This document shows, in pieces, positions 1 to 7,181 of a stretch of DNA of 7,181 nt. Numbering within the stretch: the stretch's first letter is position 1; each line of letters begins with the position of its first letter. The notes below the pieces were generated by a model. That model was not told where the DNA came from, searched no databases, and was given only the letters and a program-made list of their open reading frames with translations. This stretch comes from Oscillospiraceae bacterium. GTDB lineage: Bacteria; Bacillota; Clostridia; Oscillospirales; Ruminococcaceae. Made by a program: the position numbers and the translations under genes. The DNA lies in the NCBI GenBank assembly GCA_017396055.1, contig JAFQND010000144.1:1-7181 (forward strand), read 5' to 3'.

Positions 1-21
1 TCCCCGCCCGTTGTTTTTATG

Positions 22-42
22 TTCGGATGAGCCGAATTTCGG
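22..42. repeat. Overlapping small palindromes (TTCGG / CCGAA / TTCGG)
   Basis: Three five-base arms lie in a row: TTCGG at 22-26, CCGAA at 32-36 and TTCGG at 38-42. The middle arm can pair with either neighbour, giving two mutually exclusive hairpins: a 5 bp stem with a 5 nt loop, or an 11-base odd palindrome. The stretch lies downstream of the iolB stop codon, next to the larger palindrome at 48-66, and probably belongs to the same intergenic element. No coding signal is visible. The stems are short, so this could be partly chance. Confidence 0.4.
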
Positions 43-47
43 AATAC

Positions 48-66
48 GGGACGGGAGACCCGTCCC
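48..66. repeat. GC-rich palindrome at the 3' end of the operon, probable dispersed repeat
   Basis: GGGACGGG (48-55) and CCCGTCCC (59-66) form a perfect 8 bp stem around the 3-base loop AGA, flanked on the right by CTACAAAAAT. The hairpin lies about 20 bases past the iolB stop codon on the minus strand. It is very stable, but neither strand has a T-run directly after the stem, so it is not a classical intrinsic terminator. It could still stop or slow polymerase, or protect the mRNA 3' end. The sequence resembles GTAGGGGACGGG-type palindromes that I recall as scattered between genes in gut Clostridia; that is memory, not a search. The first ten bases of the window (TCCCCGCCCG) may be one arm of a further copy cut by the window edge. 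Confidence 0.55.
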
Positions 67-86
67 CTACAAAAATTATCCCGTGA

Positions 87-872
87 TCAGGCGTTCAGCC
101 ACTTATGAGCTTCTTCGGTGGTCATGAAGAAGCCGCGGTTTTCACCGGCCATGACCCACAGATAGTAGTTGTTGTAGCCGGGAGCGCAGCAGAAGGGATG
201 ATAGCCGCGGGGGATCTCAACAGCATCGCCGTTCTTGACGGTATAGGTCTCGTCGATATCGCCGCCCTTGGAGTAGACTTTCTGAATACCAAAGCCTGCT
301 TCCTTGTCGAACTCGTAGTAGTAGTACTCCTCGAGGATACCTTCGATAGGCATGTTGTCTTCGTCATGCTTGTGGGGAGGATAGCTTGCCCACTGGCCGC
401 CTTCAACGAAAGCTTCGCCGATGTAGATCAGGTTGGCGGTCACGCGCTCGTCAACGACGAAATGAGCCTCACGCTGCCAGCCGGGTTTGCCCAGGTGCTT
501 GATGATGACGTCTTCGGGGTTGATCAGAACGGGCTCGCAGTCCAGCTCGGAGGGAGACTTGCAGACAGCGATGGTGACATCGGTCACAGCGGTGATGGTA
601 TAGGGAGTGTCATGGGGAATATAAACAGCGGTAGCTGCGCCCTCAAAGGGGTTCATGCGCTTGCCGATGTTCTCATAGTCAAAGCCCTCGCCCTTGACAG
701 AGCATTTGCCGCCCAGCAGGATCAGAGAGGTCTCTTTGCCCTTTTCAGCGAAGGAGACAGACTCGCCGGGATGAAGTTTTACCATGGTCAGCTCCAGCAT
801 TTCGAGAGAGCTGTTTTCCTTGGTGATGATCTCTTCGGTGCCATAGGCACGGTCCCATGTCTTTTTCAGCAT
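87..872 (-). CDS. iolB: 5-deoxy-glucuronate isomerase IolB (cupin)
   Basis: The IolB/KduI cupin family isomerises 5-deoxy-D-glucuronate to 2-deoxy-5-keto-D-gluconate in the cytoplasm, a middle step of myo-inositol breakdown. The protein is 261 residues from the chosen start, close to the usual 265-275. Seen in the sequence: the second-cupin metal motif PPHKHDED with H167 and H169, the acidic LEEYYYYEF segment (E181, E182), and the IPRGYHPFCCAPGYNNYYLW block with H225. By comparison with KduI, the two histidines, one glutamate and the last histidine should bind the metal. An ATG three codons upstream (881) sits directly on the ribosome binding site AGAAAGGA, with no spacer. The ATG at 872 lies 8 bases from it, so it is the better start. 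This is the last gene of the five-gene operon, 15 bases after the kinase stop. The family call is firm; the substrate is inferred from the family. Confidence 0.9.
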   Translation of the reverse strand: MLKKTWDRAYGTEEIITKENSSLEMLELTMVKLHPGESVSFAEKGKETSLILLGGKCSVKGEGFDYENIGKRMNPFEGAATAVYIPHDTPYTITAVTDVTIAVCKSPSELDCEPVLINPEDVIIKHLGKPGWQREAHFVVDERVTANLIYIGEAFVEGGQWASYPPHKHDEDNMPIEGILEEYYYYEFDKEAGFGIQKVYSKGGDIDETYTVKNGDAVEIPRGYHPFCCAPGYNNYYLWVMAGENRGFFMTTEEAHKWLNA

Positions 873-880
873 GATAGTCA

Positions 881-888
881 TCCTTTCT
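881..888 (-). promoter_or_regulatory. Ribosome binding site deciding the iolB start
   Basis: Read on the minus strand, AGAAAGGA follows directly on the kinase stop codon and ends 8 bases before the ATG at 872. The alternative ATG at 881 overlaps its last base, which is too close for initiation. This is the weakest ribosome binding site of the operon junctions and the only one not of the TAAGGAG form. Confidence 0.65.
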
Positions 889-1790
889 TAAGCTCGTTCG
901 TTCAGGAATTTCTGTACCTGTTCAAATGTGGGTGCGCCGTCGCGGGCGCCCACTCTGGTGCATTTCAGAGCGGAAACTGCGCTGGAGAAGCGGCAGCATT
1001 CCGCGATCGGATAGCCCTTACAGAGGGCTGCGGCGAAAGCGCCGTGGAAGACGTCGCCGGCTCCGTTGGAATCCACTGCCTCCACAGGGAAGGCGGGATA
1101 GGAAACGATCTTTTCGCCGTCATAGAAGATACCGCCCTTTTTGCCCTGGGTGATGACCACGGCTTCGGGGGAGTAGCGGCGGTAAAGTTCCTTTGCTGCT
1201 TCTTCTGCAGTGGCACAGCCGGTGTGACCCAGCGAGAATTCCTCAGAAGGGATCAGATAATCCGCATAGGGCAGCAGGGCTTCGATACCCTGATACAATC
1301 CGCCGGCGTCATAAAGCACCTTCACGCCGTTTTCACGGGCGAATTTCGCCGCTTCCACCGCACAGGCAAGGTCATTGCCGTCGACCATGAGGATCTCGGC
1401 GTTTTTGATGGCCTCTTTCTGTGCATCGTTCAGCACAGTGCCCGGCAGGGTGCCGCGGTCGAAGATGCAGGTGCGGGTGGCAGCTTTTTTGTTCAGAAGA
1501 ATAAAGGAAGTGAAGGAGGTAAAGCCGGGCTTTACTTCGATCAGGGAGGTGTCGACGCCGAAACGTCCGAAGTCCGCCATCAGGAAAGCTCCTGCGGCGT
1601 CATCGGTCAGGTCGCCCAGAAAGGCGGCCTTTTCACCAAGTTTTGCGGCGGCGACAAGTCCGGTGGCACAGGGTCCGCCGCCCGACTGGACGGTGGACTC
1701 TGCACGCATTTTGGTATCTTCGGGAGGAAAACCGTCGGTGACCATCAGGGTGTCGCAGACGACGGCGCCGATGCCAACGATCTTGTTCAT
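888..1790 (-). CDS. PfkB/ribokinase-family sugar kinase (IolC-like role by context)
   Basis: A cytoplasmic ATP-dependent sugar kinase of 300 residues, the normal PfkB length. The N-terminal substrate-side signature is SGGGPCATGLVAAAKLG (residues 36-52). The C-terminal PfkB signature is VDSNGAGDVFHGAF (239-252), with D246 as the expected catalytic base and GAGD as the anion hole. In an inositol operon this slot is IolC, which phosphorylates 2-deoxy-5-keto-gluconate. However, classical IolC has a GGSPAN-type motif, whereas GGGP is more typical of ketohexokinase-like and sulfofructose-kinase-like members, so I leave the symbol blank. The start at 1790 has AAGGAGT five bases upstream. An in-frame ATG at 1820 would overlap the aldolase gene and lacks such a site. 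The start lies 10 bases after the aldolase stop, and the gene is co-transcribed with its neighbours. Confidence 0.88.
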   Translation of the reverse strand: MNKIVGIGAVVCDTLMVTDGFPPEDTKMRAESTVQSGGGPCATGLVAAAKLGEKAAFLGDLTDDAAGAFLMADFGRFGVDTSLIEVKPGFTSFTSFILLNKKAATRTCIFDRGTLPGTVLNDAQKEAIKNAEILMVDGNDLACAVEAAKFARENGVKVLYDAGGLYQGIEALLPYADYLIPSEEFSLGHTGCATAEEAAKELYRRYSPEAVVITQGKKGGIFYDGEKIVSYPAFPVEAVDSNGAGDVFHGAFAAALCKGYPIAECCRFSSAVSALKCTRVGARDGAPTFEQVQKFLNERA

Positions 1791-1795
1791 GGAAG

Positions 1796-1803
1796 ACTCC
1801 TTA
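1796..1803 (-). promoter_or_regulatory. Stop-embedded ribosome binding site of the kinase gene
   Basis: The minus-strand sequence TAAGGAGT contains the aldolase stop codon TAA and the ribosome binding site of the kinase in one string, five bases before the ATG at 1790. It fixes the kinase start and suggests that ribosomes ending on the aldolase re-initiate on the kinase. Confidence 0.7.
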
Positions 1804-2628
1804 CAGAATGGTGTCGGCACGGAGCAGCTTCATCTTGCTCAGTGCGAAGTTCTTGACGGCTTCAACGGGACCTCTCATGAACATATCGATACCGACCAGC
1901 TCGCGGGAGGTGGCAAAGCCTTCGTCCAGGAAGGAATAGCACAGGTCGGTGCCGAAGTTGATCTTCTTGATGCCGGCATCGATAGAGGCCTGGATCTGAT
2001 CATCGGGCACGCCGGAGCCGCCGTGGAGGACCAGAGGAAGACCGGTGGCCTCGGAGATCTCTTTGATGCGGGCGATGTTCAGAACGGGAGCCTGTTTATA
2101 GCGGCCGTGTGCGGTGCCGATGAGAACTGCCAGTGCGGCAACGCCGGTCTCTTTGACAAAGCGGACAGCTTCGTCGGTTCTGGTGTGCTCGGTGGAAACA
2201 CCGTCTTTTGCTGCGCCGATATGGCCCAGCTCACCTTCCATGGGGACGCCGGCGTGGGCACAGAGCTCACAGGCTTCCCTGGAAGCGGCGATGTTTTCTT
2301 CGAGGGGCAGGGTGGAGCGGTCCAGCATAACGCCGGTGCAGCCCCAGTGCAGGGCACGCATGACCTCGGGCAGACCTGCGCCGTGGTCCAGATGGACACA
2401 GACGGGAACGGTCGCCTTTTTGGCAGCGGCCAGCATGATGGCGGTCAGATAATAGCCGTTGTCGCTGTCGAACAGGCGGCTGTAGCCCTGCAGGATAACG
2501 GGGGAGTTTACCTCCTCTGCAGCGGCGATGACGCCCATGACAGTCTCCATGTTATAGACGTTGAAAGCGGGGACAGCGGCTTTTTTATCCTTGGTCAGAG
2601 CGAGGATCTCAGCAAGATTGACAAGCAT
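1801..2628 (-). CDS. Class II (zinc) ketose-bisphosphate aldolase, IolJ-like
   Basis: A cytoplasmic metal-dependent aldolase of the FbaA/GatY/IolJ family. All key family residues are visible: VHLDHG with catalytic D81 and zinc ligand H82, MEGELGHIG with E133, LIGTAHGRYK with zinc ligand H174, LHGGSGVPDD with zinc ligand H202, and the phosphate-binding stretch KKINFGTDL (221-229). At 275 residues it matches the short form of the family (about 280-290), not the longer E. coli FbaA type. Family members cleave fructose-1,6-bisphosphate, tagatose-1,6-bisphosphate or, for IolJ, 6-phospho-5-dehydro-2-deoxygluconate to dihydroxyacetone phosphate and malonate semialdehyde. The kinase and IolB next door favour the last, but the sequence alone does not settle the substrate. 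The ribosome binding site GGAGGAG, five bases before the ATG, directly follows the TAA of the Fe-S gene. Confidence 0.88.
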   Translation of the reverse strand: MLVNLAEILALTKDKKAAVPAFNVYNMETVMGVIAAAEEVNSPVILQGYSRLFDSDNGYYLTAIMLAAAKKATVPVCVHLDHGAGLPEVMRALHWGCTGVMLDRSTLPLEENIAASREACELCAHAGVPMEGELGHIGAAKDGVSTEHTRTDEAVRFVKETGVAALAVLIGTAHGRYKQAPVLNIARIKEISEATGLPLVLHGGSGVPDDQIQASIDAGIKKINFGTDLCYSFLDEGFATSRELVGIDMFMRGPVEAVKNFALSKMKLLRADTIL

Positions 2629-2640
2629 CGTTTCTCCTCC

Positions 2641-3726
2641 TTAGCAGTGTTCCCACAGGAAGACTTCGAGAGACTTGACGGGCAGGGTGCCGACAGCCTT
2701 CAGAGCGTTATAGGAAGTGGGACAGGCGGTGATGACCATGGAAGCACCGGTGGAGATGGCTTCGGGCATACGGCGGGCAGCCATGAGAACGGTCAGGTCG
2801 GGGCGGTAAAGGCCGATGGTGCCTTCGCCGCAGCTGATGGCTTCTTCGCCGTGACGGTACATATCCTTCAGAGCTGCGCAGGCCTTGATCAGTGCTCTGG
2901 GAGCCTCGGTCTCATGCAGCTCGCGGGCCAGACGGAAGGGATCCTGATAGGTGACGGTCTCTTCGGAGGCGGTGAAGGTCAGTTTGCCCTCGTTCATCAG
3001 ACCGAGAACATAAGCGGGGAAGGTGCGGACGTCGGCGTTCAGCTCGATGCCCCATTCGCGGTATTCACGCAGGAACATCTTGGCGCTGTCGGGAGACAGG
3101 GCGACGACGGTCTTTGCACCGAAGGCGTTGATCTTTTCAGAAGCAGCGGCAGCAAACTGTCTTGCTTCTTCGGCGGGGCCGACGATATCGGCAAAGTCCA
3201 TGCCGCAGTCGGGCTCAGACTTCATAACAGCGAAATCGACGCCGGCTTTTTTCAGCAGTTTGATGGCAGCGACAGCGCTTTCGGGAGCGAGGGAAGCAGT
3301 GTTGCCCAGGAACAGCAGGGTCTCGGCCTTTTCGGGCAGAGAAGCGATCTCGCTGAGCAGAGCCTCATCGGTGACGGGGCCGTAGGCGGAGCCTTCTGCT
3401 TCGATCTTGTCCAGCAGGTCGTTGATGTAAGCGGGAGCGATATCTGCAGCCAGAGCTTCCATACGGGCGTTCTTGGTGAAGGGCAGGGGATCAAAGCCGG
3501 TGCAGCACTGGGTGGTGCAGGCGCCGCAGAGAGCGCACTCATAAACCACTTCAGCCATGTCAGCGGTATAGTTAAAGCCTCTTGCCACCATGGAGATCAG
3601 CTCAGCGCGGGCACGGGCGTTGTTGGCCTCGTTGCCGGTGACCATGCCGACGGGGCAGACGTGCCGGCACATAAAGCAGAACCGGCAGTTATCGACGGTG
3701 TGTTTATCCTGATCGTTGATGTACAT
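2641..3726 (-). CDS. (Fe-S)-binding electron-transfer protein, GlpC/LutA/HdrD-like, with degenerate CCG motifs
   Basis: A 361-residue partner of the upstream flavin oxidase. Two ferredoxin-type cysteine sets are intact: C14-x2-C17-x2-C20-x3-C24-P and C64-x2-C67-x2-C70-x3-C74, enough for two [4Fe-4S] clusters. The C-terminal two thirds follow the outline of the two CCG domains found in GlpC, GlcF and HdrB/D, but most CCG cysteines are gone. The first repeat has DCG at 173-175 and SPDS at 211-214 where CCG and CPxC are usual. The second has YQDPF (260-264), SCGEG (298-302) and CPTS (335-338). No signal peptide or membrane segment is seen, so the protein is probably cytoplasmic or peripheral to the membrane. 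It likely takes electrons from the FAD oxidase and passes them to an unknown acceptor. The start at 3726 has AGGAGG eight bases upstream, fused to the oxidase stop codon. The acceptor and substrate are unknown. Confidence 0.85.
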   Translation of the reverse strand: MYINDQDKHTVDNCRFCFMCRHVCPVGMVTGNEANNARARAELISMVARGFNYTADMAEVVYECALCGACTTQCCTGFDPLPFTKNARMEALAADIAPAYINDLLDKIEAEGSAYGPVTDEALLSEIASLPEKAETLLFLGNTASLAPESAVAAIKLLKKAGVDFAVMKSEPDCGMDFADIVGPAEEARQFAAAASEKINAFGAKTVVALSPDSAKMFLREYREWGIELNADVRTFPAYVLGLMNEGKLTFTASEETVTYQDPFRLARELHETEAPRALIKACAALKDMYRHGEEAISCGEGTIGLYRPDLTVLMAARRMPEAISTGASMVITACPTSYNALKAVGTLPVKSLEVFLWEHC

Positions 3727-3739
3727 CTGTTGCGCCTCC

Positions 3740-5164
3740 TTACAGTCCCAGCTTGAAGGGATTCATGATGCCGTTGGGGTCGAGCTCTTTCTTGATGCCG
3801 GTCATGACCTGCATGGCAGGACCGTACTGTTCGCGCATCAGCTTGCCCAGTTTGACGCCGACGCCGTGATGGTCGTTGACGACACCGCCGTTGGCCAGAG
3901 CTGCACGGACACCGGTGTACCAGATGTTGTTGTGCAGTCTGAGAGCTTCATGAGGATCCTGGGGAGGATTGTCGACGATGAAGCGGTCGTAGATCATTGC
4001 GCCCCATTCGTACCAGTGAGAGAAGTGAGCGATAAATCTTGCCATGGGGAAGTTGGTCTCGATGGCTTCCTTCATTGCCCAGTAGATCTTTTCGATGTTG
4101 GAGTAGGTGGCGATGGAGTCCATGGTGCCGAACATCTGGGGGATATCCATCATATGGCCGGGATAGAAGAAGGTGATCTTTTCCTTCCACCACTTTTCGC
4201 CGTATTCGCTGCCCAGATCTTCTGCGCCGTATTTGTTGAAGATATCGAACAGGACTTTCTGTTCAACAGCAACGATGTCCTTCATGCCTTCGAGAGCCAG
4301 GTTCATGAAAGCACCCTTCTTCTCGACGCCGACGATCTTCTTGATCAGGGAAACGGTCTCAGCCTCGTCGTACAGACGCATAACGGAGGGCTTGATCTTG
4401 GTCAGCAGTTCCTTGCCGGCGGCAAAGGCGCTGGTCAGATCCTTGAACAGGAAAGCGCGGAACCAGCGGCACTCGGGCTCTTCGTAAATGCGCATCTGTG
4501 CCTTGGTGATAACGCCCAGGGTACCCTCGGAACCGATGAAGATCTGGTTCAGGTCGGGGCCTGCAGCATGTTTGGGAACGGGGGAGGTGTTGATGATGTC
4601 GCCGTTGGGCAGAACGACTTCCATGCTCAGGCACATGTCATCGATCTTGCCGTATTTGGTGGAGACAACGCCGATACCGCGGTGTGCCAGGAAGCCGCCC
4701 AGAGTAGAGCAGTTCTGAGAGCTGGGGTAATGCATGGTAGCATAGCCGCGCTCGTTGGCGTACCATTCCAGATGGGTGTGGATAGCGCCGGTGCCGGATT
4801 CCATATACATCGAGTCGGTGTTGAACTCGGTGATCTCGTTCATCCGCTTGGTGTCCAGCACGATGCCGCCTGCCAGAGGCAGAGCGCCGCCCTGGGTACC
4901 GCCGCCGCCGCCCCAGGTGGTAACGGGCATTTTGTAGTAGTTGGCGATCTTCAGGACATTGGAAACTTCCTGAGCATTTTTGGGGCAGACAATGATGTCA
5001 GCCTCGGGGGGAGTCATACCCCGGTCAGCCCACATTCTGGACAGCCAGAAATAGTCGATACCGTGGATGATCTTGTCAGCCTCTCTGGTGGAGCAGTTGG
5101 CGCGGCCTACCGCGTCCTCCAGTTCGTTTTGGATCATGTCGAACATGAAACCTTTGAGTTGCAT
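3740..5164 (-). CDS. FAD-linked oxidase/dehydrogenase (VAO family, GlcD/AGPS-like)
   Basis: First gene of the operon, 474 residues. The PCMH-type FAD domain is clear: PPEADIIVCPKNAQEV (52-67), the FAD pyrophosphate loop GGGGGTQGG (85-93), NCSTLGGFLAHRGIGVVSTKYG (151-172) and IFIGSEGTLGVITKAQMRI (208-226). The C-terminal cap ends with NDHHGVG (430-436), at the place of the active-site histidine motif of the family, and with the usual tail LDPNGIMNPFKLGL. The segment HFSHWYEWGAMIYDRF recalls alkyl-dihydroxyacetone-phosphate synthase-like members as well as glycolate and D-lactate oxidases. Such enzymes oxidise a 2-hydroxyacid or polyol carbon and hand electrons to a partner, here probably the Fe-S protein encoded 13 bases downstream. 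No signal peptide is present. The start at 5164 has AAGGAGAGG a few bases upstream. The substrate cannot be read from the sequence; a sugar acid, a cyclitol or a C3 hydroxyacid from the same pathway is possible. Confidence 0.85.
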   Translation of the reverse strand: MQLKGFMFDMIQNELEDAVGRANCSTREADKIIHGIDYFWLSRMWADRGMTPPEADIIVCPKNAQEVSNVLKIANYYKMPVTTWGGGGGTQGGALPLAGGIVLDTKRMNEITEFNTDSMYMESGTGAIHTHLEWYANERGYATMHYPSSQNCSTLGGFLAHRGIGVVSTKYGKIDDMCLSMEVVLPNGDIINTSPVPKHAAGPDLNQIFIGSEGTLGVITKAQMRIYEEPECRWFRAFLFKDLTSAFAAGKELLTKIKPSVMRLYDEAETVSLIKKIVGVEKKGAFMNLALEGMKDIVAVEQKVLFDIFNKYGAEDLGSEYGEKWWKEKITFFYPGHMMDIPQMFGTMDSIATYSNIEKIYWAMKEAIETNFPMARFIAHFSHWYEWGAMIYDRFIVDNPPQDPHEALRLHNNIWYTGVRAALANGGVVNDHHGVGVKLGKLMREQYGPAMQVMTGIKKELDPNGIMNPFKLGL

Positions 5165-5171
5165 ACCGTCC

Positions 5172-5179
5172 TCTCCTTT
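5172..5179 (-). promoter_or_regulatory. Ribosome binding site of the lead oxidase gene
   Basis: Minus-strand AAAGGAGA(GG) lies about six bases before the ATG at 5164. It is a strong site on a short AT-rich leader of about 30 bases. Confidence 0.65.
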
Positions 5180-5186
5180 TCAGAAC

Positions 5187-5228
5187 TTATTTTCAAAAAT
5201 ATATTATCACAAATGAAAATAAATTTCA
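5187..5228. promoter_or_regulatory. Possible operator: three TGAAA half-sites over the operon promoter
   Basis: TTATTTTCA (5187-5195) and TGAAAATAA (5214-5222) are a perfect 9 bp inverted repeat with an 18-base gap that brackets the -10 box. The right arm also forms TGAAAATAAATTTCA (5214-5228), a second dyad overlapping the -35 box. A repressor bound here would block the promoter. AT-rich DNA gives chance palindromes, and no regulator gene is in the window, so this is a candidate only. Confidence 0.4.
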
Positions 5229-5229
5229 A
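5201..5229 (-). promoter_or_regulatory. Sigma-A-type promoter of the oxidase-iolB operon
   Basis: On the minus strand the -35 box TTGAAA (5229-5224) and the -10 box TAATAT (5206-5201) are separated by exactly 17 bases. TGA directly before the -10 gives an extended -10. Both boxes match five of six consensus bases. Transcription should begin near 5194, giving a leader of about 30 bases before the ATG at 5164. No other strong promoter was noticed between the five genes, so all are probably read from here. Confidence 0.75.
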
Positions 5230-5280
5230 TAGCTTTTGCGAAGATTTTACTGATTTTCGGGAAATTTTCTTTATTAATAG

Positions 5281-5312
5281 AAAAAAGCCCTGCTGTTTGA
5301 AAACAGGGCTTT
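5281..5312 (-). terminator. Intrinsic terminator of the lipoprotein gene
   Basis: Read on the minus strand, AAAGCCCTG and CAGGGCTTT form a perfect 9 bp stem (5312-5304 with 5292-5284) around an 11-base loop. The T-rich end of the stem runs into TTTTTTCTATTAAT. The hairpin begins eight bases after the stop codon at 5320. It separates the lipoprotein transcript from the oxidase operon, whose promoter lies just downstream. Confidence 0.92.
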
Positions 5313-5319
5313 GGAAGAT

Positions 5320-6975
5320 TTATTCTGTGAAGGTCACACTGCTGAACATATTGGCTCCTTCGGCGATCCGGAACTCTGTGGAGAGCTCTCCGGACGAAGC
5401 TTCGCCCCGGTTTTTACCGAAGCCGCCTTTTCCACCGTCGAATCCCTCGGGGGGAGTCATGCCTTCGGGCATCTCTCCGTCAAATCCCTCGGGAGGGGTC
5501 ATGCCTTCAGGTATCTCGCCGTCAAATCCCTCGGGGCGGGTCATGCCTTCTGGCATCTCGCCGTCAAATCCCTCGGGAGGAGTCATGCCTTCGGGCATCT
5601 CGCCATCGAATCCCTCGGGAGGAGTCATACCTTCGGGCATCTCACCGTCGAATCCCTCGGGAGGGGTCATGTCTTCCCGGAAACCACCGCCCGGACGCAT
5701 ACCGCCCATCATGCCGCCGAAGCTGCCGCCGTGGGCAAGCTGCTGTTCACCGCTCCAGAGGGTATAGCTGCCCGCTTTCAGAGCGGAGTCCGCATAGATC
5801 ACCGTGGAACAATCGTTGGTCAGGGTGAATTCCGCAGCGGTTTTCTCTTTCTCATCTTTGAGGGTGAGGGTACTGCCGCCCGGCAGCAGCTGGCCGAAGG
5901 TGAACACGGCATAGGTGCCGCTCTCTTCGATGCGGTCGAGCATATGTCCGCCGGCGATAACGGTGCCGCCGTTGATATGAATACCCATGTCTGAATCGAT
6001 GCCGGCGTCTGCGCTGTCCGCACAGGCAGAAGCGGTGACTGTTCCGCCGTTGATGACCAGCCATCCGTTGGAGTCGATTCCGTCGCCCTCGCCGGTGTCG
6101 CCGGTGACGGTGATATCCAGGTTTCCGCCGTTGATGGTGGTGACCGAAACGTTGTCTTCGTTGGTATTGATGCCGTCGTTGCCGGAGAAGATATGGATAT
6201 TGCCGCCGTTCAGGGTCAGGTGCAGCTCGCTGTCGAGTCCTTCGTTTTCGGCGTAGATGGTCAGTTCACCGGTGCCCTTTTTTTCGCCGTCGATGTTCAT
6301 CGACATCTTTGAATAGAAAGCGCCGTCGTATTTGTGCAGCTTTTTGGCATCCTCCACCTGGCCGTTTTCGTCGAGCACAACGCTGTCGGGTTTATAGATG
6401 CGCGCCACATAGGAGCCGCGGACGGTATTGGACGTTCCGTCGGCGATGATCACTCTTGCGCCGGCAGCGGAAGTGTCCGGGTCTTTGACGGCTGTTTCGG
6501 CGTCATTGCTGCCGCATTCATAGACGTTATAGAAGATGACGGCGGGTGCCGCTTCACAGGTGATATCGGCGCCGTCAAGGATCAGGGTAACCACAGCGTT
6601 CGGGTCTTTTTCTGCTTCTTCGCCCAGGTCGACGGCGATCTGTCCGAGAGAGAGGGTGCCGCTGATGCGATAGCTGCCCGGCTTTGTGATATGCACGACG
6701 GTATGCGCCGCAGCTTCTTCGGCCGTATGGGCGTCGGCTTCGCTGCCCTCGCCGTAGGTATGATCTTTTCCGGATTCGTAATAAATGATATCGTTGGCGG
6801 TATAGACAGCGGCTGACGGATCGCTGCCGACCGCTGTTCCGTTGAGGGTGATGCCGCTGTCGTCGAGAACGATCTTTTCCGCATCGGTTTGCTGTGCGGG
6901 GGCGGCGCAGCCGGCAATCACCGCCGGCAGAAAGGCTGCCAGAAGTGCCGCTGATGCCATTTTAAGCAGTTTCAT
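5320..6975 (-). CDS. Surface lipoprotein with Cthe_2159-type carbohydrate-binding beta-helix and Pro/Gly/Met-rich repeat tail
   Basis: A 551-residue exported protein. Residues 1-22 are a signal peptide (MKLLK, then an Ala/Leu core) ending in the lipobox VIAGC with C23 as the lipid-attached cysteine, so it should sit on the outer face of the membrane. The middle region has recurring beta-helix turns of the form DGI(D/N)SN..INGGTV: about 244-265, 266-292, 297-318 and 323-343. This matches the carbohydrate-binding family typified by Cthe_2159 of Clostridium thermocellum (formerly DUF4353), which binds acidic and other plant polysaccharides and calcium. A Gly/Met-rich linker (416-432) leads into five and two-thirds copies of MTPPEGFDGEMPEG (436-515), then a 36-residue end rich in Gly and Ser. 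AGAGGAGG seven bases upstream supports the start. It has its own promoter and terminator and uses TCA codons, unlike the operon to its left. The exact ligand is unknown. Confidence 0.85.
   Translation of the reverse strand: MKLLKMASAALLAAFLPAVIAGCAAPAQQTDAEKIVLDDSGITLNGTAVGSDPSAAVYTANDIIYYESGKDHTYGEGSEADAHTAEEAAAHTVVHITKPGSYRISGTLSLGQIAVDLGEEAEKDPNAVVTLILDGADITCEAAPAVIFYNVYECGSNDAETAVKDPDTSAAGARVIIADGTSNTVRGSYVARIYKPDSVVLDENGQVEDAKKLHKYDGAFYSKMSMNIDGEKKGTGELTIYAENEGLDSELHLTLNGGNIHIFSGNDGINTNEDNVSVTTINGGNLDITVTGDTGEGDGIDSNGWLVINGGTVTASACADSADAGIDSDMGIHINGGTVIAGGHMLDRIEESGTYAVFTFGQLLPGGSTLTLKDEKEKTAAEFTLTNDCSTVIYADSALKAGSYTLWSGEQQLAHGGSFGGMMGGMRPGGGFREDMTPPEGFDGEMPEGMTPPEGFDGEMPEGMTPPEGFDGEMPEGMTRPEGFDGEIPEGMTPPEGFDGEMPEGMTPPEGFDGGKGGFGKNRGEASSGELSTEFRIAEGANMFSSVTFTE
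5431..5670 (-). repeat. 42-bp in-frame tandem repeat (14-residue unit) in the lipoprotein tail
   Basis: Five full 42-base copies (starting at 5670, 5628, 5586, 5544 and 5502 on the minus strand) are followed by a 30-base partial copy from 5460. Each full copy encodes MTPPEGFDGEMPEG; the fourth reads MTRPEGFDGEIPEG. Copies differ mainly at third codon positions, so the array is not freshly duplicated but is kept in frame and nearly constant in protein sequence. The unit is rich in Pro, Gly, Met and acidic residues and is likely extended or disordered. Confidence 0.95.
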
Positions 6976-6982
6976 GAGAAAA

Positions 6983-7009
6983 CCTCCTCTGATATTTGGT
7001 CTCAGTATA
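6983..7009 (-). promoter_or_regulatory. Promoter -10 and ribosome binding site of the lipoprotein gene
   Basis: On the minus strand TATACT (7009-7004) is a good -10 box. Its start point near 6997 would give a leader of about 22 bases carrying AGAGGAGG (6990-6983), seven bases before the ATG at 6975. The -35 position at 17-base spacing reads CTTATT, a poor match, which suggests that an activator is needed. Confidence 0.5.
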
Positions 7010-7036
7010 GGTTAAAAATATGAAAGAATAAGTAAA
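7010..7036 (-). promoter_or_regulatory. Possible direct-repeat activator site upstream of the lipoprotein -10
   Basis: Minus-strand hexamers TTTACT (7036-7031), TTTCAT (7025-7020) and TTAACC (7015-7010) recur at 10-11 base steps, one helical turn, and occupy the weak -35 region. This spacing is typical of OmpR/PhoB-class response-regulator sites such as TTAACA-type boxes. The repeats are imperfect and the region is AT-rich. Confidence 0.3.
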
Positions 7037-7041
7037 GTTAT

Positions 7042-7052
7042 CTGAATTTCAG
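7042..7052. promoter_or_regulatory. 11-base palindrome in the divergent intergenic region
   Basis: CTGAA-T-TTCAG is a perfect odd palindrome midway between the two divergent start codons. It could be an operator shared by both genes. It is short, so confidence is low. Confidence 0.3.
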
Positions 7053-7091
7053 GTGAAGTTCCCGCGCAGGAGAGAGAAATCGCTTCGCATC

Positions 7092-7120
7092 TTGACATCG
7101 GGGCGGGAAAAAGTTAAAAT
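7092..7120 (+). promoter_or_regulatory. Sigma-A-type promoter for the plus-strand gene at the right edge
   Basis: TTGACA (7092-7097) is a perfect -35 box, followed after exactly 17 bases by TAAAAT (7115-7120), five of six for a -10. Transcription should start near 7127, leaving a leader of about 50 bases. A perfect TATAAT at 7145-7150 lies further down but has no recognisable -35, so it is secondary at best. Confidence 0.75.
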
Positions 7121-7176
7121 AGAAAAGTGAAAAAAAGTTTCATTTATAATGTATCCTTTCCGAAAGGCTGGAGTTT

Positions 7177-7181
7177 ATGAA
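7177..7181 (+). CDS. Start of a plus-strand gene cut by the window edge
   Basis: Only ATG and two further bases (AA) are present. The evidence for a real start is the promoter at 7092-7120 and ribosome binding sequence just upstream: AAAGG at 7163-7167 and GGAG at 7170-7173. The product cannot be told. It is transcribed divergently from the lipoprotein gene with 201 bases between the start codons. Confidence 0.45.

Follow-up and report, generated by a model that had tools for sequence, protein, structure and literature searches.

A conserved operon of gut Clostridia and Planctomycetes that couples an AGPS-like flavoenzyme to two kinases and an aldolase and may represent an undescribed route of sugar breakdown

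What does an operon degrade when its IolB-type isomerase, PfkB kinase and class II aldolase recall the lower half of inositol breakdown, and its first two genes encode a flavin adenine dinucleotide (FAD)-dependent oxidase and an iron–sulphur (Fe-S) protein? This question is raised by a contig of an Oscillospiraceae bacterium (GenBank JAFQND010000144.1, positions 1 to 7,181; here contig C38), the whole of which, 7181 bases, was analysed and is referred to as the window. Our analysis points tentatively to a sugar other than inositol, probably one with an acid end, that is broken down via a ketose-1-phosphate-like intermediate, and the dehydrogenase (the oxidase of the initial annotation) is predicted to make this intermediate from the product of a second, FGGY-type kinase. 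We put this reading forward as plausible rather than probable.

The FGGY kinase and a further electron carrier escaped the initial annotation because the contig ends after the IolB gene, stopping 86 bases past it. In a sister species (locus L025, oxidase 95% identical), IolB is followed by the FGGY kinase and then by a fused EtfB-EtfA protein. In the window's genome, the same order was found on contig C97 (4080 bases), with an FGGY kinase at 336-1802 (79% identical to that of L025) and a fused EtfBA directly after it at 1812-3200, and C97 likely continues C38. Repeat-like intergenic sequence is present at the facing contig ends (window positions 1-60, downstream of IolB, and L154:1-335 on C97) and may be the reason for the assembly break. 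With both Fe-S and Etf partners for the oxidase, and with two kinases, a different pathway can therefore be drawn.

The extent to which these genes belong together was examined by scanning genome contigs for the oxidase, which yielded 242 confirmed stretches, the best 80 of which were kept as loci (the other 162 remaining unseen), with genes called by a codon-usage script without annotation. All five window genes were present in 53 of the 54 loci with at least 5.2 kb downstream of the oxidase gene, and in 44 of the 45 with at least 9.0 kb, a linkage that is far beyond chance. Among the former 54 loci, the Fe-S protein and IolB were each found in every one, the aldolase, PfkB and FGGY in 53 each and Etf in 46, while 45 loci held all seven genes. 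Gene order is variable, being usually oxidase, Fe-S, aldolase, PfkB, IolB, FGGY, Etf and in some loci oxidase, Fe-S, IolB, FGGY, Etf, aldolase, PfkB. A fucose-isomerase-like gene accompanied the operon in 40/80 loci and a DUF4867 gene in 30/80. Where the upstream sequence extended for 2.5 kb or more (70 loci), it carried an RpiR-type regulator in 37 cases. The incomplete genome of the window (1.9 Mb, 67.7% complete) yielded no fucose-isomerase-like gene.

Median identity to the window proteins was 78% for the oxidase, 40% for Fe-S, 56% for the aldolase, 61% for PfkB and 60% for IolB, and the oxidase remained ca. 78% identical across phyla. IolB fell into two main classes, at 35-46% (24/61) and at least 56% identity (34/61), with 3/61 in between. 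Residue conservation was read from rows of the expected length and without X, which numbered 81 for the oxidase, 67 for Fe-S, 62 for the aldolase, 61 for IolB, 57 for PfkB, 51 for FGGY, 37 for Etf, 39 for the fucose-isomerase-like protein and 30 for DUF4867.

The initial annotation had stated that a complete iolGED set immediately beyond the window or co-regulated elsewhere, together with an oxidase only rarely linked to the other genes, would make this an ordinary inositol locus. A genome-wide search for iolD and iolE across 48 genome handles, made up of the window's genome, G034 and 46 with oxidase loci, returned no match above the cut-off for either IolE (TIGR04379; weaker matches in 40/48) or IolD (TIGR04377; weaker matches in 25/48). 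Other families were searched in 50 handles. In all these searches the handles represent part of the 80 loci, many of the genomes are incomplete and some contigs have a partial operon; G034 and G299, both among the 48, gave identical answers and are possibly one genome. In 14 named control genomes, the IolE cut-off was passed by two and the IolD cut-off by three. Both the lack of iolD and iolE above cut-off in 48/48 genomes and the linkage of the oxidase in 53/54 loci consequently favoured the initial annotation over its own refutation.

Its attribution of the kinase and aldolase to the lower inositol half in particular was not borne out, as the kinase scored 111.5 with the IolC model (TIGR04382, cut-off 300) and had sulfofructose kinase as its nearest solved relative. 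A true iol operon from the same family (L145, genome G011) served as a near control and scored 375 (374.9) for IolC against 300, 902 for IolD against 715, 417 for IolE against 290, and 482 for IolG against 355. The window IolB reached 251.2 with TIGR04378 (cut-off 205), whereas the IolB of this true iol operon (L145:7713-8495) reached only 102.7. The model therefore discriminates poorly, and the NCBIfam IolB model may mislead annotation. A route that oxidises, isomerises, phosphorylates and cleaves another sugar, as the initial annotation had also considered, came nearer in logic than inositol breakdown.

By sequence, the oxidase was closest in the PDB to AGPS (24% identity), the alkyldihydroxyacetonephosphate synthase of ether lipids, which acts on an ester of dihydroxyacetone phosphate (DHAP) by replacing the acyl group of acyl-DHAP with an alkyl group. 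In the alignment, AGPS residues Arg419, Tyr578, His616 and His617 corresponded to Arg263, Tyr392, His432 and His433 of the oxidase, which were invariant in 81/81 rows and also present in relatives at 33-35% identity, while AGPS His615 was not kept (Asp431 in the oxidase). Because the substrate of AGPS is a DHAP ester, a DHAP-like product end fits the oxidase, and its location in a bacterial operon with Fe-S and Etf partners in turn indicates a dehydrogenase. This flavin enzyme is predicted to pass its electrons to a dedicated carrier. The Fe-S protein contains two ferredoxin-type 4Fe-4S motifs and a weak match to the CCG domain (Pfam); 26 of its 67 rows start late, with gaps at the first two cysteines. 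The fold of the oxidase is also that of LDHD and of LctD, a part of the Ldh-EtfAB complex, but LDHD His405 and the Glu of the EHGIG motif are replaced by Tyr392 and His432 in 81/81 rows, and the GlcD model gave 183.4 against a cut-off of 567.9. An identity as D-lactate dehydrogenase was rejected, since the fold agrees and the catalytic His and Glu are replaced.

The aldolase carries Cys230 in 62/62 rows, as does YdjI, at a position which we take to be the 6-phosphate site that has a basic residue in some bisphosphate aldolases (Arg in 8q58, Lys in AgaY); an aldolase of L144 likewise has no basic residue there. The Arg51 of the operon aldolase replaces the Lys of 8q58 and of a true IolJ. This aldolase fell short of the class II fructose-bisphosphate aldolase equivalog (TIGR01859; 229.7 against 343.05) and exceeded the cut-off of the ketose-bisphosphate aldolase subfamily (TIGR00167; 222.6 against 215.6). 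For the PfkB kinase, which was scanned and searched as window:888-1787 without its first Met, the position of YihV Arg138, presumably a sulfonate-binding residue, was Asn in 56/57 kinases. The fucose-isomerase-like protein was nearest to the sulfoquinovose isomerase SftI, with that of L048 scoring 100.8 against the NF048012 cut-off of 700. The nearest relatives of several operon proteins, namely sulfofructose kinase, SftI (far below cut-off) and IolB, have sugars with an anionic end as substrates.

More distant relatives of the operon were found to keep parts of it. Locus L125 (oxidase 61% identical) has the order RpiR, oxidase, Fe-S, aldolase, GldA-type dehydrogenase, TRAP importer, TIM barrel, IolB and FGGY, and the next 18 kb gave no match to PfkB or Etf; the oxidase, Fe-S and aldolase genes are adjacent both here and in the main group. 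Its TIM barrel protein was nearest to hydroxypyruvate isomerase, far below cut-off, and its IolB scored 185, below the cut-off of 205. Its TRAP importer suggests an acidic substrate, and the nearest solved binding proteins were 4ovt, 4pc9, 4pfb and 4o8m, which we take to bind L-fuconate, D-mannonate, glycerol-3-phosphate and L-galactonate. In a planctomycete locus (L141), whose oxidase is 53% identical, a gene weakly resembling the fucose-isomerase-like one (21%) is followed by IolB and FGGY and, further on, by the oxidase and Fe-S genes. Between FGGY and the oxidase lie two Gfo/Idh genes, one for a TIM barrel protein, one for a transporter, a NagB-like gene and one for a deacetylase, the unscanned genes of this locus and of L130 being named by sequence appearance. 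The lack of aldolase and PfkB in L141 tells little because the contig ends soon after the Fe-S gene. In L130 (oxidase 36%), the oxidase/Fe-S pair lies within a cluster that by eye resembles glycerol-3-phosphate oxidation genes and is followed by FGGY, so that FGGY recurs beside the pair at oxidase identities of 61%, 53% and 36%. Four further loci (L127, L128, L129 and L131) have the pair alone, without other operon genes, and form a separate bacterial group with AGPS-like oxidases 33-35% identical.

The scheme that we prefer for these genes has two arms meeting at the aldolase, whose cleavage of the ketose-1-phosphate-like intermediate would give DHAP and a short aldehyde. In the first arm, IolB would isomerise an aldose, or the fucose-isomerase-like protein would do so instead in half of the loci, perhaps assisted by the DUF4867 cupin and an aldose epimerase, after which PfkB would phosphorylate the ketose beside its keto group, as happens in the inositol and sulfofructose routes. 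In the second arm, the FGGY kinase would phosphorylate the terminal hydroxyl of the matching aldonate or polyol, and the flavin/Fe-S/Etf complex would then oxidise the carbinol neighbouring the phosphate, yielding the DHAP-like end for which the AGPS-type residues seem suited, much as glycerol kinase and anaerobic glycerol-3-phosphate dehydrogenase act on glycerol. The two-arm scheme is preferred because it explains the second kinase, the oxidase residues, the adjacency of oxidase, Fe-S and aldolase, and the existence of L125 without PfkB. Against it, IolB and FGGY are neighbours, and FGGY resembles xylulokinase, passing the TIGR01312 cut-off of 380.25 (385.7 in L025, 400.5 in L125) while scoring far below that of PRK15027 (247.5 against 912). 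The more specific notion that an AGPS-type flavoenzyme with Fe-S and fused Etf partners oxidises a sugar phosphate to a ketose-1-phosphate, which the class II aldolase then splits in an undescribed glycolysis-like pathway, is possible but rather doubtful. If true, it would make the enzyme a bacterial dehydrogenase of sugar phosphates of a new kind, and would link the cleavage of sugars to flavin-based electron confurcation in Planctomycetes and gut Clostridia; the two-arm scheme, if it holds, would give anaerobes a further way to use sugar acids or polyols via a flavin/Fe-S/Etf complex.

The main rival to the two arms is a single linear route, corresponding to a reading of the initial annotation in which the oxidase acts on a three-carbon (C3) product of the aldolase. 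An aldose would be isomerised by IolB or the fucose-isomerase-like protein and, once phosphorylated by one of the two kinases (FGGY or PfkB), split into DHAP and a C3 aldehyde or acid, on which the other kinase and the flavin/Fe-S/Etf complex would act. The closeness of IolB and FGGY in every arrangement speaks for this route, as do the GldA-type dehydrogenase that follows the aldolase in L125, in the place that PfkB has elsewhere, and the oxidase fold common to LDHD and LctD. However, the catalytic His and Glu of D-lactate dehydrogenase are missing from the oxidase (Tyr392, His432), PfkB resembles ketose kinases rather than kinases of C3 compounds, and no aldehyde dehydrogenase recurs in the operon, leaving the linear route somewhat unlikely.

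Another rival would place the oxidase first, acting on a free imported sugar acid or polyol to make the keto sugar for the kinase and aldolase, with FGGY and the fucose-isomerase-like protein serving a second sugar. The lead position of the oxidase gene, the TRAP importer of L125 (typical for acids) and a fold family rich in dehydrogenases of free alcohols and acids are in line with this order of events. A kinase linked to the operon in 53/54 loci would nevertheless hardly serve a separate sugar, and the oxidase residues match those of an enzyme with a phosphorylated substrate, so that we consider this rival improbable.

A variant of sulfoglycolysis, for sulfoquinovose or a related sulfosugar, is very unlikely. 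It accords with the nearest relatives of PfkB (sulfofructose kinase) and of the fucose-isomerase-like protein (SftI), and with the presence of DUF4867 in sulfoglycolysis clusters according to passages of PMC11968277. Against it stand the low SftI score and the replacement of YihV Arg138, which disfavoured sulfoquinovose as a substrate, and the finding that no sulfoquinovosidase, sulfolactaldehyde reductase or dehydrogenase, or sulfonate exporter recurred among the clustered genes within 10 kb of the oxidase, a genome-wide search not having been made. LDH2-type dehydrogenase genes were seen beside the operon in L057:17064-17690 and L096:15075-16193; they are single cases nearest to sulfolactate dehydrogenase and below cut-off (L096 scored 245 against 500 for L-sulfolactate dehydrogenase). 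An ordinary myo-inositol locus with its neighbours missing, for which only the IolB score above the NCBIfam cut-off (251 against 205) speaks, is extremely improbable given iolE and iolD above cut-off in 0/48 genomes each, the kinase at 111 against 300, and the different true iol operon of the same family, with its IolB at 103.

Uronates were also considered as substrates. D-Glucuronate or galacturonate as the main substrate is less likely, though not impossible, the uronate isomerase UxaC being already present in 37/50 genomes. For the 4-O-methyl-glucuronate of xylan no link was seen, with GH115 in 7/50 genomes and GH67 left out of the search.

Judged by their record titles, the carriers are uncultured, and most are Clostridia from the guts of herbivores (goat, sheep, deer, buffalo, yak, cattle, horse and rabbit); five of the records are labelled Planctomycetia or Thermoguttaceae and one Paenibacillaceae. 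The strong conservation of the operon in gut and environmental bacteria suggests a shared, well-used substrate, likely derived from plants. Its distribution is patchy: IolB relatives occurred in 17/297 genomes of a family sample, with an identity above 37% in just two, that of the window and G034 (57%). In a phylum sample, 3/398 genomes, the window's own among them, had an oxidase with 61% identity or more. The oxidase was found in 1/12 genomes of the class of G456 (G456 itself) and in 7/246 genomes of the order of the planctomycete carrier G310. This pattern suggests horizontal transfer of the operon.

No transporter or glycosidase recurred widely near the operon in the loci; a DMT-type permease was present in 4 loci, all planctomycete (by sequence appearance), and other transporters and glycosidases were single cases. 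NagB-like genes, often with NagA, lay in or beside the operon in L030, L052, L056 (below the NagB cut-off), L069, L071, L077, L079, L088, L090 and L141, L077 also having genes for an AGE epimerase and for a MurQ-like protein, neither of which reached its cut-off. In L027:8522-15909, phosphoesterase-like, GH31 and beta-helix-like genes, of which only GH31 was scanned, were interposed among the operon genes.

Within the window, the five packed genes in one direction were confirmed as initially annotated, from 87-5164 on the minus strand (Table 1), with gaps of 13, 12, 10 and 6 bases from the oxidase to IolB. For PfkB, the open reading frame list also offered a GTG start at 1820, the conserved ATG being favoured. 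A single promoter for all five genes, as initially proposed, is plausible, the promoter-like and terminator-like features being consensus matches only and the window containing 6 promoter-like matches against 2.5 expected and 8 terminator-like matches against 7.5. Towards the end of the Cthe_2159-type gene lies a tandem repeat of 42 bases (5.8 copies, 5435-5676). At 7092-7181 on the plus strand, a near-perfect promoter-like match (TTGACA-17-TAAAAT) is accompanied by a possible start codon at 7178, where a divergent gene seems to begin right at the end of C38. Neither tRNA genes nor Rfam families were found in the window.

Table 1. Location of the operon genes and neighbouring features in the window.
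Feature	Position	Strand	Length	Basis and remarks
FAD-dependent dehydrogenase (FAD_binding_4 + FAD-oxidase_C)	3740..5164	minus	474 aa	Pfam, AGPS alignment, residue conservation, model
Fe-S electron carrier	2641..3726	minus	361 aa	Pfam, cysteine conservation
Class II aldolase (F_bP_aldolase), Arg51 + Cys230	1801..2628	minus	275 aa	Pfam, alignments, 62/62 rows
PfkB sugar kinase	888..1790	minus	300 aa	From conserved ATG; nearest solved relative sulfofructose kinase
IolB-type aldose-ketose isomerase (KduI/IolB family)	87..881	minus	264 aa	Pfam, TIGR04378
Promoter-like match TTGAAA-17-TAATAT	5201..5229	minus		Consensus scan only; 36 bases before oxidase start codon
Terminator-like hairpin between preceding gene and operon	5284..5312	minus		Consensus scan only
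Cthe_2159-type carbohydrate-binding protein gene	5320-6975	minus	551 aa	Pfam; upstream of operon

No description of the operon was found among the matches listed from open-licence PMC full texts, and the operon may encode a sugar-degrading pathway not yet described. Passages of PMC13219744 and PMC12890257 treat sulfoquinovose breakdown without this gene set. In passages of PMC11968277, the largest DUF4867 cluster (434/557) lies beside fucose-isomerase and FGGY genes and is attributed to unassigned aldose/ketose metabolism, and a passage of PMC9594981 proposes sugar ring opening for DUF4867; the operon would supply a context for these proteins.

When compared to known systems, the operon resembles the sulfo-Embden–Meyerhof–Parnas pathways in its isomerase, PfkB-type 1-kinase, aldolase, DUF4867 protein and epimerase (as far as passages of PMC11968277 and PMC9594981 describe them), but has a flavin/Fe-S/Etf complex and an FGGY kinase where those have sulfolactaldehyde enzymes, an isomerase far under the SftI cut-off, and no counterpart of YihV Arg138. 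With the L-fucose/L-rhamnose route it has in common an isomerase, an FGGY kinase, an aldolase and, in L125, a GldA-type dehydrogenase, but its aldolase is of the F_bP_aldolase rather than the FucA/RhaD family, and it adds a second kinase and the flavin complex. The lower myo-inositol half (IolB-IolC-IolJ) likewise unites an isomerase, a PfkB kinase and a class II aldolase in one operon, whereas the set described here lacks iolD and iolE above cut-off, has a kinase far under the IolC cut-off and carries extra FAD, Fe-S, Etf and FGGY genes. The LctBCD-Etf complex and GlcDF-type glycolate oxidase differ in that an Fe-S protein and a fused EtfBA are both present here, and in that their hydroxyacid-dehydrogenase His and Glu are replaced in the oxidase. 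Finally, AGPS, as the best sequence match in the PDB, has four catalytic residues in common with the oxidase, which differs from it in its bacterial operon with Fe-S and Etf partners, in its low overall identity of 24%, and in having Asp431 for His615.

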